Positions 7,838 to 52,500 of a DNA stretch of 64,000 nucleotides are shown in pieces; position 1 is the stretch's first letter, and every line of letters starts with the position of its first letter. The stretch comes from Actinomyces massiliensis 4401292. GTDB taxonomy: Bacteria > Actinomycetota > Actinomycetes > Actinomycetales > Actinomycetaceae. The stretch covers positions 497,779-561,778 of the forward strand of contig NZ_JH711481.1 in NCBI RefSeq assembly GCF_000269805.1. Reading direction: 5' to 3'. Position numbers and translations under genes: made by a program. The notes below the pieces were generated by a model. That model did not search any database. It worked only from the letters and a program-made list of their open reading frames with translations, and was not told the origin of the DNA.

Positions 7838-8383
7838 ATGAGCGAGCAGAGCACGCCCCGGATGAATGTCGAGTCCTTCAACCTGGACCACACGCGAGTG
7901 GCCGCGCCCTTCGTGCGGATCGCGGACCGCAAGCGCCTGCCGGGCGGAGACGAGCTGATCAAGTACGACGTGCGCTTCTGCCAGCCCAACCGCGAGCATC
8001 TGGAGATGAGGGCGGTGCACTCCATCGAGCACCTGACCGCGGAGCTCATGCGCAACCACACCGATCGGCTCATCGACTGGAGCCCGATGGGCTGTCAGAC
8101 CGGCTTCTACGCTCTGACCCTGGGGCTGGAGCCGGCCGAGTTCCTGCCACTGCTGGAGGCGACCTTCCGCGACGTCCTGGAAGCCACCGCCGTGCCCGCC
8201 GCCAACGAGGTGCAGTGCGGCTGGGGCGCGAACCACTCCCTGGAGGCGGCGCAGGAGGCGGTGCGAGCCTTCCTGGCGGCCCGCTCGGAATGGGAGATCG
8301 TCATCCCCGAGGCCTCGGCGGATTCTGAGGCGCAGGGGACTCCCGCGGCTCCCGTCGCCCGCGAGCAGGGCCAAGAAGCGTGA
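7838..8383 (+). CDS. luxS: S-ribosylhomocysteine lyase
   Basis: 181 residues. LuxS cleaves S-ribosylhomocysteine to homocysteine and DPD, the precursor of autoinducer-2, in the activated methyl cycle. The metal site HSIEH (His61, Glu64, His65) and the Cys of QCGWG (about 127) are present, as is the catalytic Cys86 in MGCQTGFY. The substrate-contact N-terminal part with FNLDHT is also present. The last ~20 residues are an Ala/Pro/Glu-rich extension not typical of the family. The start codon lacks an obvious RBS. The upstream enzyme MTA/SAH nucleosidase is encoded at 10680. The next gene overlaps its stop codon, so the two are probably co-translated. Confidence 0.97.
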
Positions 8384-9336
8384 TGCCCCTGGCCCTGGAA
8401 TCGGCCGCCGAGGACGCCATCATCATCCCGCAGAGCCCGATCCTCCTGTTCACCGTCCTCCTGCAGCCGGGGATGATGCTGCTGGCCTACCTCGTGGGCC
8501 GGCTCACCCGCCGCATCCTGCAGCGCTGGGGGACGAGCCTGTCCTCCTCCGCGGCGACGCTGACGGCGCTGCTGGGCCTATGGGGCGGCCTGGCGCTGGG
8601 GGCCTGGCTCTTCGACGAGGACTACCTGTGGGCGACACGCCTGCTCATCTGCGCCGTCGCCACCGCCGTCGGGGTCATCGTCCTGACCTCCGCCGTCGCC
8701 GCCTGGTTGCAGCACGAGCCCGAGCTCGAGCCGATCGCCGAGGCCGCCCGCCGCGGGGAGTCCGAGCGCCTGGAGTTCAAGTCCTCCGCGCGCGTGAATC
8801 TGCGCACCGGCAAGCGCGACGACGCCATGGAGACCATCGCCGCCAAGACGGTGGCCGCCTTCCTCAACTCCCGCGGCGGCACCCTGCTGCTCGGGGTCGA
8901 CGACGCCGGCCGCCTGATCGGCCTGGGCCCGGACTACACGACCCTGCGCCATGAGGATGCCGACCGCTACGAGCTCTTCCTGCGCGACCTGTGGCGCACC
9001 CGCCTGGGAGCGAACGCCGCAGTGCTGCCGCGCCTGGATTTCGCCCCGGCCGACGACGGCGAGGGCGACGTCTGCCGAGTCACCGTGCCGCCCTCGCCGG
9101 TGCCCGTCTACCTGTCCGGTCCCAAGGGCAAGGGCGGGCGCGAGCTGTGGGTGCGGGCCGGCAACTCCACCCAGCGCCTCGAGGTCGATGACGCCATCGC
9201 CTACGTGACTCAGCGCTGGCCTCACACGGTGCGCCCCTCGCTGCGCAGCCGGATAGGCACCTACCTGCTCTACCACCGCCGCCCGGCCGGAGCATCGGCC
9301 GATGGTGACCGAACTTCGGGTCGGCTCCTCGGCTAG
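8380..9336 (+). CDS. Membrane protein with AlbA_2 (Schlafen-type) domain
   Basis: 318 residues; start at GTG 8380 or ATG 8383, both touching the luxS stop. The first ~115 residues hold three probable membrane helices (around [37 protein letters not shown] and [15 protein letters not shown]). From about residue 122 comes an AlbA_2/Schlafen-AAA_4 domain: [11 protein letters not shown], then [19 protein letters not shown] and [11 protein letters not shown]. This domain is usually part of putative transcriptional regulators or nucleic-acid enzymes with ATPase or nuclease activity; here it is tethered to the membrane and has no C-terminal winged helix. The translational overlap with luxS is noteworthy but gives no function by itself. 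Confidence 0.75.
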
Positions 9337-9392
9337 CGGCGCCGACCAGCGCGTCCTGTCGGCCAGCGCGTCCAACGTCGACTGCGGTCTGC

Positions 9393-9484
9393 AACGTGAA
9401 CGTACCTTTCTCCCGTCCTTCTGACTTCTATCCCCAGAAGGATGGGAGAAAGGTACGTTGATACTGCAAAGGTACGTTCATGTT
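9393..9484. repeat. Three-arm hairpin element, copy 1
   Basis: Left arm 9399-9423 pairs with right arm 9435-9459 over 25 bp with one G-U wobble and an 11-nt loop. After 8 bases, a third arm at 9468-9484 can pair with 9393-9409 instead (17 bp, one wobble). The same design, with different outer sequence, recurs at 47122-47203. It lies in a convergent gap and could act as a terminator or switch. Confidence 0.75.
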
Positions 9485-9627
9485 CCGTCGTGTCCTGAGC
9501 GGGCGCCCGGACGCTGCGCCCGCTCAGGCGGGATCCGCCTCTGCCGTGCGCGACGGCTCTTCTACAAGCTCTCATGCCCGCACCCCACCAACGACGCACC
9601 CCACCACCCCACCTACCGGCACAACCT

Positions 9628-9698
9628 CTTGCTACGCTCTTTTGCCCCTTACCACGCTCCTTCTCCTCGTACAGTAAGGAGCGAAGGGGCGTAGTAAG
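9628..9698. repeat. Imperfect inverted repeat
   Basis: CTTGCTACGC (9628-9637) mirrors GCGTAGTAAG (9689-9698) with one mismatch, and inner blocks CCCCTT and CGCTCCTT also match their counterparts, interrupted by two bulges. It may be the terminator of the leftward remnants or a decayed repeat copy. Confidence 0.4.
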
Positions 9699-9782
9699 CG
9701 CCAAGGGTCCTCAGTAAGTCGCCGCTCTCGCTTCTTGCGATAGAACTTCTCGCGCAGGGACTCGACGCGGTCCTCCTAACTT

Positions 9783-10085
9783 CTACTTGCACTCCTGGCG
9801 GCGCTCCTCGTGCAGCACCCGGGCGGCCCCAAGCTCGGTGAGGACCCGGGCGGCCTCGAGCCGCAGGACCTGACCGCCCAGCGGGGCGACGTCGTCGTCG
9901 AGCACTTCGGCGGCGTACTCCTCGACCTCGGCGAGGATGGCGGTGCCCGCGGGCAGCCGCCTGCTGAGCTCGCCAATGGCGGACTCGGAGCGATCGACGC
10001 GGTTGGCCGAAGCCGCCGATCAGGGAGCCCGCGCCCCATCCCAGCAGCACGCCCAGCGTGCCTCCCAGAATGCGGAACGGCCCAC
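9783..10085 (-). pseudogene. Remnant of DUF1269-like small membrane protein
   Basis: Two frames give the C-terminal half of a protein: ILGGTLGVLLGWGAGSLIGG (glycine-rich membrane segment), then, after a frameshift near 10010, NRVDRSESAIGELSRRL and LPAGTAILAEVEEYAAEV up to a TAG at 9783-9785. This layout, a glycine-rich helix followed by an amphipathic 'LPAGTxxLxxxVEE' block, resembles DUF1269-type stress proteins. The 5' end is missing, replaced by the next remnant. It is not functional. Confidence 0.5.
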
Positions 10086-10091
10086 CGCCCC

Positions 10092-10475
10092 TCACGCGGC
10101 CGCCGGTTCGCGCCGCAGCACGGCCAATGACGTGGCCCGGCCGCTGGAGTCCGCGGTTCCCAGCATGACGCCGCTGAGGGCGGAGTCGAGCACCGTGGCC
10201 GGCAGGACCCCGGCAATGCCGCTGGGAACGCTGGGAACGCTGGGTCCGCCGGAAGCACCGACCGCCAGAACCCACACGGCCTGGGCCGCCAGGGCCAGGA
10301 GCGAGATCGCGCTCGCCCCGCGCGCACCGAGAGCGGCCATGAGGGCGGCATGGAGCACCGTCATCGCCAACGCCCCTACCAGGAGCAGCCCACCCACGAC
10401 CCACACGTTGCCGAACCGCACGCCCGCCAGCGCCACCGCCCCGGCCAGCGCCACCGCCTGGACCACGGCCAGCAC
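10092..10475 (-). pseudogene. C-terminal fragment of YhgE/Pip-like membrane protein
   Basis: An open frame of 127 codons with three or four hydrophobic helices (AVVQAVALAGAVALAG, VVGGLLLVGALAMTVLHAAL, ASAISLLALAAQAVWVLAV) and the pattern LPATVLDSALSGVMLG. This is like the last membrane segments of YhgE/Pip (phage infection protein) exporters, which are over 600 residues. No large periplasmic domain or proper N-terminus is present and the frame runs out of phase into another remnant, so I call it a fragment. The VPSVPS stretch comes from a 9-bp repeat. Confidence 0.5.
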
Positions 10476-10481
10476 CTAGAA

Positions 10482-10605
10482 GTGTCCAAAACGGAGGGGA
10501 TTAGAGCCGGGCGCTGACGCACCTTCCGGGCGAAACCGCGGATTCAAGCGCCAGAAGGACACCACCCCGATGCCCAACGCTCCTGATCTCCTCCGTTTTG
10601 GACAC
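10482..10605. repeat. Inverted-repeat element, 124 bp, copy 1
   Basis: The ends are GTGTCCAAAACGGAGG... and its inverse, 20 of 21 positions matching. A second element with the same ends lies at 16563-16684, but the ~80-bp interiors are unrelated in sequence. Both copies sit between divergent gene starts. It is MITE-like; no target duplication is visible. Confidence 0.8.
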
Positions 10606-10679
10606 CAATCCACCCTCCAAGCACCCTCCAGGCCGCTTCAAGGGCTGCGCGAGCCGCCGTTGAGCGTAGGCTCTTCGTC

Positions 10680-11447
10680 ATGAACCCGGTCATGAGCGCT
10701 GCAGACCTCGCCCGCCCGGTCGTCACCCTTGTCTCCTGCGCCATGGACGAGGAGGTCCGACCCTTCCTGGATGCTCTGCCCGAGCGCGAAGGCGCCGACC
10801 CCATCGCACTGCTCGGCCGTGCCAAGGCCTGGCGGCTGCAACTTCCCGGCGAGGAGGACCGCGAGCTGGTCCTGGTGCGCAGCGGCATCGGTCTGGTGGC
10901 GGCGACGAGCGCCTTGACGGCCGCCCTCGCTCAGGTGCGGCCCGATGCCATCATCTCGGCCGGAACCACGGGCGGCCTGGGGCGCGAGATCGAGGTCGGG
11001 GATGTGTGCGCCTCGACCGCCCTGGCCTACACCGATGCCGATGCGACCGCCTTCGGCTATGCGCCCGGTCAGACGCCCGGGCAGCCGGAGTCCTTCAGCG
11101 GCGATGCCGTCCTGCTGGAGCGACTGGGGCACGTGGGGCCGCAGGCGCTGCGGGGGGCCACGGCGTCATCAGGCGCAGCCGCCTTCCACGCGGGCCGGAT
11201 GCTGGCTGGAAACTCCTTCGTGACGGCGGCGAATGTGGGCGCCACGAGGGAGACGTTCCCCGACGCGCTCAGCACGGACATGGAGTCGACAGCTCTGGCG
11301 CAGGTGGCCGTGGGCGCCGGCATCCCCTTCGTCTCGGTCCGGGGCGTGTCCGACCTGTGCGGGCCCGAGGCCGGCCAAGACTTCCACATCGCCGCCGAGG
11401 AGGCGGCCGCCCGCAGCGCTGCCGTCGTACTGGCGCTCTTGAGCTGA
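10680..11447 (+). CDS. mtnN: 5'-methylthioadenosine/S-adenosylhomocysteine nucleosidase
   Basis: 255 residues; a second ATG at 10692 is also possible and neither has a clear RBS. The enzyme removes adenine from MTA and SAH, giving S-ribosylhomocysteine for LuxS. Family signatures are visible: an acidic residue in SCAMDEEV near the N-terminus, RSGIGLVAATSAL, GTTGGLGREIEVGDV, the substrate-binding MES in STDMESTALAQVA and, at the end, VRGVSDL with the catalytic Asp. A short insertion around residues 130-155 is more variable. With luxS at 7838 it forms the two-step AI-2/SAH recycling route, although the genes are separated by remnants and repeats. Futalosine hydrolase is a related alternative but less likely. 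Confidence 0.85.
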   Translation: MNPVMSAADLARPVVTLVSCAMDEEVRPFLDALPEREGADPIALLGRAKAWRLQLPGEEDRELVLVRSGIGLVAATSALTAALAQVRPDAIISAGTTGGLGREIEVGDVCASTALAYTDADATAFGYAPGQTPGQPESFSGDAVLLERLGHVGPQALRGATASSGAAAFHAGRMLAGNSFVTAANVGATRETFPDALSTDMESTALAQVAVGAGIPFVSVRGVSDLCGPEAGQDFHIAAEEAAARSAAVVLALLS

Positions 11448-32619: not shown

Positions 32620-32652
32620 GCCCCCAGGCTAGCCTCGACCAGCCTCTTCGCC

Positions 32653-32740
32653 GAGATCGGTCCGCTTCCGCACCGAGATCGGTCCGCTTCCGGCTCGAGA
32701 TCGGTCGCACTCCGCCGCGAGATCGGTCCCCGGACCCTCG
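32653..32740. repeat. Tandem array of four 22-bp units
   Basis: GAGATCGGTC starts at 32653, 32675, 32697 and 32719, exactly 22 bp apart, with tails CGCTTCCGCACC, CGCTTCCGGCTC, GCACTCCGCCGC and CCCGGACCCTCG. The same units occur at 52435. It lies in the divergent gap between the antiporter and cstA genes. Confidence 0.9.
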
Positions 32741-43899: not shown

Positions 43900-45209
43900 A
43901 GCCCGCCGTCGGTCTGGAGCTGCAGGGCCGCTACCAGCTGATCGAGCGGATCGCCCTGGGAGGCATGGGGGAGGTCTGGCGCGCCACCGACCTGCGCAGC
44001 GGGCGGATGGTCGCGGCCAAGATCCTGCGCCCGGAGCTCGCGGGCGACGAGATCTTCCTGTCGCGCCTGCGCGCCGAGGCGACGAACTCCCGCGGGCTGC
44101 GTCACCCCAATCTGGCCATCGTCCTGGACGCCGGCGAGCGCGACGGCTCGGGTTGGATCATCATGGAGCTCGTCCAGGGGCGGGCGCTGTCCGACATCAT
44201 CACCGACAAGGGCACCATGGCGCCCGCGGAGATCCTGCCGATCCTCGCCCAGGTCGCGCGAGCGCTCCAGGTGGTGCACGACTCCGGCGTCATCCACCGC
44301 GACGTCAAGCCCTCCAACATCCTGATCAACCGGGAGGGTCTGGCCAAGCTCACGGACTTCGGCATCTCCACCGGAGTCAACCAGCGCCCGATGACGGCCA
44401 CGGGCATGGTCATGGGCACGGCCCAGTACCTCGCGCCCGAGCAGGCCATGGGCAACATGGCCACGGCCGCCGGCGACCTATACGCGCTGGGGATCATCGC
44501 CTATGAGGCTCTGGCCGGTCGCCGCCCCTTCACGGGGACGACCCAGGTGGATATCGCCTTCGCCCACGTCAACGAGCCGGTCCCGCCCCTGCCCAACTCG
44601 GTCCCCGCCGAGGTCAACGCCGTCGTCATGGAGCTGCTCGCCAAGAAGCCCGCGGACCGCCCGCCGTCGGCTCGCGAGGTTGCGCGGCGCCTGGACCGCA
44701 TCGTCGTCAATCTGCCGGCGGACTCGTGGGACCCGCGGCAGACGCCGACCTGGACGTCCACAGGGCGCCGAGTCGACCGCTCCCGCACTGAGGCGCCGGG
44801 CGAGGCGGCGTCTCGATCCGCGTCGGCAGAGCCCGCCCCCAGGCGCCGCCGGCGCCGTGCCCGCGACAAGCAGGATGAGCGCAATGGCAACGAGCCCGAT
44901 CGCCGTGCCGGCAGGCGGAGCGCATCGGACGGCGGATCAGGATCCACCCGTGCATTCCCCATCGCCGAGCGCACGCGGGCCGCAGCGGCCGGATTGCTCG
45001 AGGCAGGTCCCAGTCCGACACGTCACGCCTCTGGGCGCGGCCTATTCGGGCTGCCCTTGGCCCAGACCCGTCTGGTCGCTCTGGTCGCAGTCGCTGTGCT
45101 GACTCTTCTCGCCATTGTTGTCGCTGCAGGTACCCTTACGTCAGCACAGCCAGGCGTCCCGCGCGGGCAGGCCGTTGTGTCCACCATCCCACTACAGGAG
45201 GCACTGTGA
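43896..45209 (+). CDS. pknA: Ser/Thr protein kinase PknA
   Basis: 437 residues. Kinase domain 1-275: Gly-rich loop IALGGMGEVWRA, Lys in MVAAKIL, catalytic loop HRDVKPSNIL, DFGIS and activation segment MGTAQYLAPEQA. A ~110-residue basic, Arg-rich juxtamembrane linker follows, then one helix (about 389-413: LVALVAVAVLTLLAIVVAAG) and only ~25 residues outside, without PASTA domains, as expected for PknA. It phosphorylates cell-shape and division proteins. The stop overlaps the pknB start. Confidence 0.95.
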   Translation: MKPAVGLELQGRYQLIERIALGGMGEVWRATDLRSGRMVAAKILRPELAGDEIFLSRLRAEATNSRGLRHPNLAIVLDAGERDGSGWIIMELVQGRALSDIITDKGTMAPAEILPILAQVARALQVVHDSGVIHRDVKPSNILINREGLAKLTDFGISTGVNQRPMTATGMVMGTAQYLAPEQAMGNMATAAGDLYALGIIAYEALAGRRPFTGTTQVDIAFAHVNEPVPPLPNSVPAEVNAVVMELLAKKPADRPPSAREVARRLDRIVVNLPADSWDPRQTPTWTSTGRRVDRSRTEAPGEAASRSASAEPAPRRRRRRARDKQDERNGNEPDRRAGRRSASDGGSGSTRAFPIAERTRAAAAGLLEAGPSPTRHASGRGLFGLPLAQTRLVALVAVAVLTLLAIVVAAGTLTSAQPGVPRGQAVVSTIPLQEAL

Positions 45210-47083
45210 CCGAGTTCCCCCAGGTCCTCGCAGGCCGCTACGAGATCCGAGACCTCATCGGACGCGGCGGCATGGCCGAAGTGCACCTCGGTTACGACAA
45301 GCGCCTGTCACGCATCATCGCGATCAAGCTGCTGCGCTCGGATATCGCCGGCGATCCCACCTTCCAGGCGCGCTTCCGCCGCGAAGCGCAGTCGGCCGCA
45401 GCTCTGAACCACCCGACCATCGTCGCCGTCTACGACTCCGGCGAGGAAGAGATCACGACGCCCAACGGCTCAACGCGGTCGGTGCCCTACATCGTGATGG
45501 AGTACGTCGAGGGGCACACGGTCCGCGAACTCCTCGGCGATGGCGAGGCCGTCCCGATCCCGGAGGCGGTTGAGATCACCACGGGTGTGCTGGATGCTCT
45601 CGAGTACTCCCACCGTGCGGGCATCGTGCACCGCGACATCAAGCCCGGGAACATCATGCTGACCTCCACCGGCGCGGTGAAGGTCATGGATTTCGGCATT
45701 GCGCGGGCCATGGAGGACTCCTCCGCGACGGTCACCCAGACGCACGCCGTGGTCGGCACCGCCCAGTACCTCTCCCCGGAGCAGGCGCGCGGCGAGATCG
45801 TCGATGCCCGTTCCGACCTCTACTCCACCGGGTGCCTGCTCTACGAGCTGCTCACCGGCCAGCCCCCCTTCACCGGGGACTCCGCGGTCGCCATCGCCTA
45901 CCAGCATGTGCGCGAGATCCCCAAGCCGCCGTCGTCCCTGGCGGCGGATGTGCCCGAGTCTCTCGACCGAGTCGTCCTGAAGGCCCTGGCCAAGACCCGG
46001 GACGACCGCTACCAGGACGCCGCTCATATGCGCACCGAGCTTCTGGCGGCGGAACGGGGCATGGCCGTCTCAGCACCGGCGACCGACACCTGGCAGAGCA
46101 CGACCGCCATGCCCTCGGCGACGGCGCCCTCACCCGCCGTCCCGGCCCCACCGCCGTCGGCGGCCCCGCCGCAGGCCGGTCCTGAGAAGGCGGCTGAGGA
46201 CAAGCGCCCCCGGCGTCGTTGGTGGGTGTGGCTGCTCTTGATCATCCTCCTGATCCTGGCGGGCACCCTTATCGGCATGCTCGCTTCGGGCAGGTTCCTG
46301 GGAGGCAAGCCGAGCCCGACGCCCTCGCCGACGGCGACCGCCGCCACTGTGCCGGACGTGTCCGGCATGTCGGAGGATGACGCCAAGACCGCCATCGAGG
46401 ACCTCGGGCTGACCTTCGTCAAGGGGGATGACGTCTCGTCGGACACGGTCGATGAGGGCCTGGCGGTGTCCTCCGACCCGGGAGCCGGCACGTCCGCCGT
46501 TCTGGGCGCTGATGTCACTGTGAGTTTCTCGTCGGGATCCGCCACGGTCAAGGTTCCCGACGTCACCGGCATGACGCAGTCCGAGGCGCGCAAGGAGATC
46601 GAGAATGCGAACCTCGCCTGGGGCGATGTCACCGCTGAGGATTCTCCGGGCACCCAGGCGGGCCGTGTCATCCGTTCCAGCCCCGCCGCAGACACGTCAG
46701 TGTCACGGGGGGAAACCGTGTCCGTGGTCGTCTCCTCGGGGCGCACGACCGTGCCCTCCGTCGTCGGCAAGACTCAGGATGAGGCCCAGGAGGCGATCAA
46801 GGCCGCGGGCTTGAACTACAACACGACGACGAATGACTCGAAGACCAACGACCAGTCGAAGAGCAATCGCTACGAGGTCACCGCAGTCGACCCCGCGGAG
46901 GGGCAGAGCATCGATCTGGGCGACTCCGTGACGCTCACGGTGACGCACTACGTCTACGAGGCGGCCCCGACGGCGAGCCCGACCCCCGGCAGCTCCTTGG
47001 TCCCGTCTCCAAGCAAGCCGCCACAGCAGAATGGTGGCGACGACAACGACGACAACGACAAGGATAAGGACAAGAAGCACTAA
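45206..47083 (+). CDS. pknB: Ser/Thr protein kinase PknB with three PASTA domains
   Basis: 625 residues from GTG 45206. Kinase domain 1-280: LIGRGGMAEVHLG, IIAIKLLRSD, HRDIKPGNIML, DFGIARAME and VGTAQYLSPEQARGE. A Pro/Ala linker, a membrane helix at about 337-358 (VWLLLIILLILAGTLIGML), then three PASTA units at roughly 380-446, 447-514 and 515-590 (VPDVSGMSEDDAKTAIEDLG; VPDVTGMTQSEARKEIENAN; VPSVVGKTQDEAQEAIKAAG), ending in an Asn/Asp/Lys-rich tail. PASTA domains bind muropeptides or lipid II and activate the kinase. Mycobacterial PknB has four. It is the last gene of the operon and is followed by hairpins. Confidence 0.96.
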   Translation: MTEFPQVLAGRYEIRDLIGRGGMAEVHLGYDKRLSRIIAIKLLRSDIAGDPTFQARFRREAQSAAALNHPTIVAVYDSGEEEITTPNGSTRSVPYIVMEYVEGHTVRELLGDGEAVPIPEAVEITTGVLDALEYSHRAGIVHRDIKPGNIMLTSTGAVKVMDFGIARAMEDSSATVTQTHAVVGTAQYLSPEQARGEIVDARSDLYSTGCLLYELLTGQPPFTGDSAVAIAYQHVREIPKPPSSLAADVPESLDRVVLKALAKTRDDRYQDAAHMRTELLAAERGMAVSAPATDTWQSTTAMPSATAPSPAVPAPPPSAAPPQAGPEKAAEDKRPRRRWWVWLLLIILLILAGTLIGMLASGRFLGGKPSPTPSPTATAATVPDVSGMSEDDAKTAIEDLGLTFVKGDDVSSDTVDEGLAVSSDPGAGTSAVLGADVTVSFSSGSATVKVPDVTGMTQSEARKEIENANLAWGDVTAEDSPGTQAGRVIRSSPAADTSVSRGETVSVVVSSGRTTVPSVVGKTQDEAQEAIKAAGLNYNTTTNDSKTNDQSKSNRYEVTAVDPAEGQSIDLGDSVTLTVTHYVYEAAPTASPTPGSSLVPSPSKPPQQNGGDDNDDNDKDKDKKH

Positions 47084-47121
47084 GAGGTAGACGCTACTCC
47101 GATCCCCGGGGATCTCAGCAT

Positions 47122-47203
47122 CAACGGCGGTTTCCCTCATCCTTCTGGCATTTGTCCTTAGAAGGATGAGGGAAATTGCCGTTGACACGGCAAACCGCCG
47201 TTG
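47122..47203. repeat. Three-arm hairpin element, copy 2
   Basis: Left arm 47122-47146 pairs with 47160-47184 over 25 bp (two adjacent G-U wobbles). Seven bases further, 47192-47203 (AAACCGCCGTTG) is a perfect partner for 47122-47133. The inner part around CATCCTTCT / AGAAGGATG is shared with copy 1 at 9393. It lies after pknB in a convergent gap. Confidence 0.8.
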
Positions 47204-47348
47204 TCGCCGTCGGGCCTGAAGCCAGGACCCAGCCCGGCCGAGCCGGTCCGACGCCTCCTTGGAACCAACCAATCATCGGGAAGAGCCCGAGGATCTCCCC
47301 GTCGGGCCTGTCGGGTCGGCATGCTCTTCCTTCGTTCGTTGCCGTAGG

Positions 47349-47395
47349 CAGGTGGGGTGAGGTCGGCGTGATCAACGCCGGCCTCACCCCACCTG
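47349..47395. terminator. Bidirectional terminator hairpin
   Basis: CAGGTGGGGTGAGG-(T)-CGGCGT pairs with AACGCCG-GCCTCACCCCACCTG around a short loop. It separates the kinase operon from the convergent sortase pair. Confidence 0.85.
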
Positions 47396-52369: not shown

Positions 52370-52434
52370 GCTGTGCGTCGACGCTGCCCGGCCTTGTGAC
52401 TTTCCAGACGCCCAGCCCCAACCGCCCCTCCGCC

Positions 52435-52500
52435 GAGATCGGTCCACTTCCGGCTCGAAATCGGTCGTACCCCGCACCGAGATCGGTCCCACTCAATCGA
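52435..52500. repeat. Tandem array of three 22-bp units
   Basis: GAGATCGGTC, GAAATCGGTC and GAGATCGGTC start at 52435, 52457 and 52479, 22 bp apart, with tails CACTTCCGGCTC, GTACCCCGCACC and CCACTCAATCGA. A degenerate fourth unit may follow. The units match those at 32653. Confidence 0.9.

Follow-up and report, generated by a model that had tools for sequence, protein, structure and literature searches.

A stretch of 64,000 nucleotides from Actinomyces massiliensis 4401292 (hereafter the window; contig NZ_JH711481.1, positions 497,779 to 561,778) contains two strong hairpins, copy 1 and copy 2, and in each of them one arm seems able to pair with either of two partners. This raises the question of whether they work as RNA, switching between pairings, or as DNA. 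The first-pass annotation had named a switch, an attenuator or a mobile element whose specificity part is variable, and of these the evidence supports only the mobile element. Both hairpins are copies of a small dispersed palindromic DNA repeat, here called family 1, other copies of which lie on either side of a nuclease gene. They are probably the dispersed non-coding copies that are paired with this gene, in a system resembling that of repetitive extragenic palindromic sequences (REPs) and their REP-associated tyrosine transposases (RAYTs) but built on an unrelated nuclease.

The hairpins themselves are real. Folded as RNA, copy 1 reaches -55.2 kcal/mol (z -8.4) and copy 2 -59.0 kcal/mol (z -7.5), values that none of 200 shuffles equalled in either case. 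In copy 1, positions 9399-9423 pair with 9435-9459 over 25 bp including one G-U, and a third arm at 9468-9484 complements the left arm at 9393-9409, as had been claimed, with 16 Watson-Crick positions and one G-U. The stem-arm pattern occurs nine times in the window at up to three mismatches: four matches are perfect and are the arms of the elements, while the other five carry three mismatches each. In 100 shuffles the mean number of matches is 2.9 and the maximum 7. The three arms turn out to be parts of a four-unit element, in which two direct units of about 10 bp (L2 and L1) are followed by a 14-bp stem arm, a 13-nt loop, the second stem arm and two inverted units (R1 and R2), with the units spaced 19-20 bp apart (Table 1). 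In this layout the third arm corresponds to R2, the outer right unit, and L2 is its counterpart by symmetry. The outer arms had been described as entirely different between the two copies; they are instead recurring, swappable unit types, AACGTACCTT and AACGGCGGTT, with L2 of copy 1 representing a third type, GACTGCGGTC, and the outermost unit of copy 2 degenerate on one side.

Many more copies exist in the home genome (3.37 Mb in 13 contigs). The core pattern, at up to two mismatches, has 48 matches compared to 3 for the reversed control pattern, a DNA search returns 43 family matches, and 20 copies align without gaps across 117 columns. With a covariance model built from these copies, 24 distinct places were found at E ≤ 0.01, 21 strong and 3 weak; the home-genome alignment (A1) consists of 20 of the 21 strong places, with C3:357212 left out. 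Elsewhere in the genus the model has matches in 19 of 49 genomes, or 19 of 47 once genomes of lower quality are set aside, the filters losing weak matches in these counts. The copies are mostly intergenic, and most of them, in the home and A. oris groups alike, keep a GAG-nTC-nnCCCC-like sequence in the loop.

Which parts of the element are conserved bears directly on the RNA question. Pairing in the home genome reaches 92.8% in the inner helix, where 16 of 27 pairs show double-sided changes, and 64.6% in the outer one; each of the five measures lies above 500 shuffles. The A. oris-group alignment (A4, 36 of the 37 elements of 117 bp, without L096) likewise has a covarying inner stem, in which pair 43/75 is G-C in 18 elements and C-G in 17, and over the whole structure the covariation score and the cells with double-sided changes (80 vs 57.6) are both higher than in any of 500 shuffles. 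The first-pass annotation had proposed to look in relatives for copies with the same matching arms. Copies are numerous there, and covariation is again seen in the inner stem, but pairing is absent at the unit positions 32-36/82-86 in 17, 17, 18, 19 and 11 of the 36 elements, because L1 and R1 hold different types; most units of this group are of the GTAC or the TGCG type, and these types are distributed over the four slots in varying order. This makes an RNA switch a poor match to the data. Judged from the alignments, what is conserved is unit identity together with the inner palindrome and not the alternative pairing of L1, R1 and R2, a pattern that fits typed protein-binding units and a palindrome rather than alternative RNA pairings.

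An RNA element of a broader kind, be it a switch, an attenuator or an intergenic terminator with mutually exclusive pairings, would agree with the stable hairpins, with the covariation of the inner stem and with the 28 of 84 elements that lie between convergent genes. However, another 14 lie between divergent genes; the remainder comprise 26 between genes of the same strand and 16 that are unclear, 10 of these inside a doubtful open reading frame (ORF) called by the simple gene caller from which the contexts derive. A simple consensus scan, covering terminators that have a U-tract and a loop of up to 8 nt, found none beside either copy, nor did it find a sigma-70-like promoter beside either. 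No Rfam family reaches its gathering score at either element, the permissive matches there being all sub-threshold and mostly to eukaryotic microRNA models; the three Rfam matches in the window are tRNAs. The unit mismatches in the A. oris group, the gene orientations and the lack of U-tract terminators led us to reject a switch or attenuator, and we consider an RNA element as a whole highly improbable.

The nuclease gene that carries family 1 at its sides lies at C1:1374622-1375734 of the home genome, between rplL and rpoB. Two element copies bracket one gene at this site in G000, G014, G019, G020, G001, G021 and G040; it is co-oriented with rplL in G000 and opposite in the other six. In G020 the gene (L140:2168-3288) is frame-disrupted and gives two separate matches, and both flanking elements are present. 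A tblastn search with the protein found a match at this locus only among L061-L142, and the same search with 63 Actinomyces proteins found no such nuclease gene inside the window. At three loci, according to the gene caller, the nuclease gene alone lies between both elements.

The arrangement is not confined to family 1. In 51 of 63 Actinomyces loci the 700-bp flanks on the two sides of the gene have a repeat of at least 50 bits in common, and in 53 one of at least 40 bits, the 63 genes being a hand-picked, mostly full-length set among the matches listed and not a random sample. For comparison, a shared repeat of at least 50 bits occurs at 6 of 60 kinase or Schlafen genes and in 2 of 300 random window placements, and one of at least 40 bits in 7 of 200 cross-locus pairs and 3 of the 300 placements. 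Grouped by protein similarity, clusters with a flanked member number 27 of 30 at ≥60% identity, 12 of 14 at 50% and 29 of 35 at 70%. A palindrome score of at least 0.6 on both flanks was seen at 41 of 61 nuclease loci, compared to 10 of 60 control genes and 2 of 300 random placements. With either flank sufficing, the counts are 52 of 61, 31 of 60 and 94 of 300, and therefore only the paired criterion separates well. Clear internal repetition is present in 41 of 64 flank repeats, with a best period of 19 or 20 bp in 36 of the 41, and shuffled flank repeats had any internal repeat in only 2 cases.

Gene and repeat also vary together. Protein and element similarity are correlated (Mantel r 0.58, 0 of 2000 permutations, the species tree not being corrected for), and matching elements accompany 28 of 28 protein pairs at ≥85% identity and 19 of 30 at 70-85%. 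In raw match counts from 8 and 7 genomes, elements are fewer where the ortholog is absent (one-sided p = 0.046), a comparison that ignores relatedness and draft assemblies and was given little weight. A rival proposal is that another enzyme, a DDE or Y1 transposase, mobilises the repeats, and that the nuclease genes are passengers that inserted between copies or are drawn to repeat-rich intergenic sites. This would be in keeping with an insertion hot spot that holds more than one palindromic family and with a gene position between the conserved neighbours rplL and rpoB. Yet every lineage of the gene has a repeat of its own on both sides, paralogs within one genome having an element in common in 0 of 20 pairs, and passengers would not be expected to show the own-repeat pattern in 27 of 30 clusters. 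We regard mobilisation by another enzyme as unlikely.

Beyond the genus, the protein profile has matches in 115 of 149 genomes sampled from the order Actinomycetales, and in 53 of 64 genera. Among non-Actinomyces loci with flanks, a shared flank repeat of at least 50 bits is present in 19 of 26 and of at least 40 bits in 22 of 26, while cross-locus controls of the same geometry give 2 and 3 of 150 and random placements of the same geometry 6 and 9 of 200 at the two thresholds. The 26 exclude L369, an artefact of overlapping flanks, and the Actinomyces locus L364, with which the count becomes 20 of 27; L355 (own genus) and L354 (own genome) likewise stand outside this comparison.

The encoded protein is predicted to join an AbiEi-antitoxin-like N-terminus to a nuclease domain resembling Vsr and the EDxHD homing endonucleases. 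In a Pfam scan of 31 members, the Vsr-type restriction endonuclease families MTES_1575 and DUF559 were found in 21 and 7, respectively, and no Y1 transposase family was found at E ≤ 0.01; the available part of one source places MTES_1575 in the Vsr family (PMC3710099). The top fold matches of the predicted structure are Vsr-type, and predicted fold and conserved residues agree on a Vsr-like nuclease fold with an acidic active site. Its motif is kept in 62 of 63 proteins, which is unexpected for a plain regulator. The elements could otherwise be operators or structural sites of an AbiEi-like regulator, serving autoregulation or the organisation of the chromosome, in which case the nuclease domain would have no part in mobility. 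The N-terminal fold, as modelled, and the evenly spaced units, which resemble protein-binding sites, are what such a regulator would lead one to look for; copies that flank the gene left and right and also occupy many further sites, some of them convergent, are not, and the idea seems to us distinctly unlikely.

Signs of movement come from comparing related genomes. At the convergent intergenic site L134, seen in 12 of them, the element is present in four (displaced in one), six have a short element-free intergenic region, and two have an unrelated palindromic repeat. Among the pairs listed, non-orthologous copies are typically alike over about 113-117 bp and diverge beyond; some G000/G013 copy pairs are alike further out, where a different repeat adjoins the element. 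For a third example family, queried with a gene-flanking copy of G023, eight gene-flanking copies in G027, G041, G010 and G028 have 92-96% identity to the query among the matches listed, compared to 73-88% for nearly all other copies, G023's own included (the exceptions are one of 93% over 75 bp in G010 and one of 93% in G034). Bacterial interspersed mosaic elements are small, non-coding, intergenic inverted repeats. The elements described here are alike to these and to miniature inverted-repeat transposable elements (MITEs), as the available part of PMC3733652 portrays the latter, and are unlike both in their internal tandem units at 20-bp spacing and their linked nuclease gene. Many diverged copies and a concerted sequence within a genome would suit ordinary MITE-like debris whose arms are kept complementary by gene conversion, without present activity. 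The high identity of gene-flanking copies in four other genomes argues against debris, which we judge very unlikely.

If the repeats and the nuclease do form one system, binding, cutting and copying could proceed as follows. The nuclease, probably acting as a symmetric dimer, would bind the units with its AbiEi-like N-terminal part, and its Vsr/EDxHD-type domain would nick or cut the element, either in duplex form or as a hairpin that is extruded or formed on the lagging strand. During repair the element would be copied into new intergenic sites and the copies homogenised, which would make repeat and protein evolve together. Transcribed into RNA, the hairpins may in addition protect 3' ends as a by-product. 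Several observations weigh against the pairing of these repeats with a mobilising nuclease. The match to I-Bth0305I is weak both by sequence (E 0.011) and by Foldseek E-value (0.011), and that to AbiEi has a root mean square deviation of 6.1 Å. No clear flank repeat accompanies 12 of the 63 Actinomyces genes (two at contig edges) or 4 of the 26 outside loci, and the element-rich drafts G013 and G035 have no ortholog-level family-1 nuclease among the matches listed. Genome relatedness inflates the Mantel test. Pairs with a double-sided change are fewer in the A. oris group than in shuffles (15 vs 19.1), the third repeat family of the window is a direct array with no clear inverted half, and at L134 no clean target-site duplication was found, empty sites being seen with boundaries that are too diverged.

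Among known systems, the nearest are the REP/REPIN-RAYT (TnpA-REP) REPtrons, as far as the available parts of the sources describe them (PMC3116915, PMC8266576, PMC3733652). In them, too, palindromes are scattered between genes, the enzyme gene has its own repeat on its flanks, one genome holds several families of distinct sequence, and the enzyme co-varies with the repeat. Of the REPtron hallmarks, the paired flanking repeat and the dispersed, mainly intergenic copies recur here, and the HUH Y1 enzyme does not: the RAYT is an HUH tyrosine transposase, whereas the present enzyme appears to combine an AbiEi-like part with a Vsr/EDxHD-type domain. Moreover, the elements are larger arrays of tandem and inverted units instead of short tagged hairpins, and the hosts are Actinomycetales. 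Compared with the EDxHD homing endonucleases (I-Bth0305I, PDB 3r3p), in the available part of PMC3943268, no intron is seen here, a complete palindrome stands on each side of the gene, and a population of non-coding repeats exists. In contrast to the AbiE type IV toxin-antitoxin (AbiEi, PDB 6y8q), in which AbiEi has the nucleotidyltransferase AbiEii as its neighbouring partner, the AbiEi-like part is fused to a nuclease, and at the three loci noted above that gene stands alone between the elements.

The repeats bracketing nuclease genes in many Actinomycetales genera suggest a type of miniature selfish DNA that has so far gone unrecognised. We lean slightly towards a previously unrecognised class across the order, independent of the HUH-based REP/RAYT systems, in which a single-gene nuclease sits between its own palindromes and spreads them by cutting and repair; the private repeat of each lineage would then reflect fast diversification of recognition. 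A literature search, with subscription journals and most preprints outside its reach, returned no link of DUF559/MTES_1575 genes to palindromic repeats among the matches listed, nothing joining DUF559 with AbiEi or with transposable elements, and nothing on palindromic intergenic repeats in Actinomyces or on REP/RAYT hairpins in Actinobacteria. The available part of the RepRanger paper mentions no DUF559, endonuclease or RAYT, and Actinomycetota once, in a table. If such a class exists, it would give a role to a very common actinobacterial gene group and account for the abundance of DUF559/MTES_1575-type genes in Actinomycetales, as well as for a share of the palindromic intergenic DNA in Actinomyces. 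A lifestyle of enzyme plus private palindrome would have arisen a second time, from a homing-endonuclease-like nuclease. The nuclease would also be a candidate for the missing enzyme of CGTC-type REPs, which are said to lack a dedicated transposase in the available part of PMC3733652, and the many pairs of protein and own recognition sequence would be a ready data set for protein-DNA recognition.

Table 1. Repeat elements of the window and their parts; copies 1 and 2 are both among the rows from which covariance model R1 was built.
Feature	Position	Strand	Basis
Family-1 element, copy 1	9371..9487 (117 bp; genome C1:507149-507265)	+	Covariance model R1, 105.4 bits, E 1.8e-33
Copy 1 outer left unit L2, third type GACTGCGGTC	9378..9389	+	Alignment position, unit table
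Copy 1 inner left unit L1, GAACGTACCTTT type	9396..9408	+	Alignment, unit table
Copy 1 left arm, inner stem	9409..9422	+	Covarying helix, fold
Copy 1 13-nt loop, GAGCTCTACCCCC-like as in most family copies	9423..9435	+	
Copy 1 right arm, inner stem	9436..9449	+	Fold, covarying helix
Copy 1 inner right unit R1	9450..9462	-	Alignment, unit table
Copy 1 outer right unit R2 (third arm)	9469..9480	-	Alignment, unit table
Family-1 element, copy 2	47095..47211 (genome C1:544873-544989)	-	R1, 86.3 bits, E 1.6e-26
Copy 2 outer unit L2, AACGGCGGTT type	47193..47204	-	Alignment, unit table
Copy 2 inner unit L1, AACGGCAATT	47174..47186	-	Alignment, unit table
Copy 2 left arm, inner stem	47160..47173	-	Fold
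Copy 2 loop, diverged	47147..47159	-	
Copy 2 right arm, inner stem	47133..47146	-	Fold
Copy 2 inner unit R1, AACGGCGGTT type	47120..47132	+	Alignment, unit table
Copy 2 outer unit R2, degenerate, reads CCCCGGGGAT	47102..47113	+	Unit table
Second-family element (nuclease gene in G013, C6:75249)	9628..9700	.	89% identity, E 2.4e-21; 84%, E 1.3e-17
Third-family element, tandem CGAGATCGGTC-like units, ~20 bp period	32649..32729	+	91% over 78 bp to L265 flank repeat
Third-family element, second window copy	52429..52494	+	85% over 60 bp

The window also contains elements of two further families. The second-family element belongs to a family that brackets a nuclease paralog in G013, and both third-family copies match the flank repeat of the home genome's second nuclease gene (C1:1112480-1113499).

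As for the surroundings of the two hairpins, copy 1 lies after a Schlafen/AlbA_2-domain gene at 8380-9336, and the gene order over 7838-11447 is an ORF that we take to be LuxS-like, the Schlafen/AlbA_2-domain gene, copy 1 and a nucleosidase-type gene (PNP_UDP_1). Repeated units of GGGGACATTC type, partly at a spacing of about 20 bp, take the place of copy 1 downstream of the Schlafen-domain gene in several A. oris-group genomes (L191-L195, L200). Copy 2 lies after the ORF 45206-47083, presumably a PknB-like kinase, and faces a sortase gene. The stretch that separates the kinase gene from the sortase gene has a strong inverted repeat at 47350-47395, AGGTGGGGTGAGGTCGGCG...CGCCGGCCTCACCCCACCT, which is likely an ordinary terminator-type hairpin. 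The intergenic site matching copy 2 holds a four-unit GAGCACGTCACTT palindrome in G005 (L147), and downstream of the kinase gene in G034 (L148) are direct and then inverted GACGGTTCGTACC units of about 20-22 bp, an array (G034:C1:18101-18214) that belongs to the family found on the flanks of the L301/L302 nuclease genes. Lastly, a repeat class of about 200 bp, seen at L061:1290-1500, L106, L115, L119, L120, downstream of L174 and at L235/L238, has a conserved interior that includes AACCGCGGAAT and is enclosed by inverted ends (e.g., GATCACCCCACGCAC...GTGCGTGGGATGATC), and these ends vary from copy to copy yet stay complementary.
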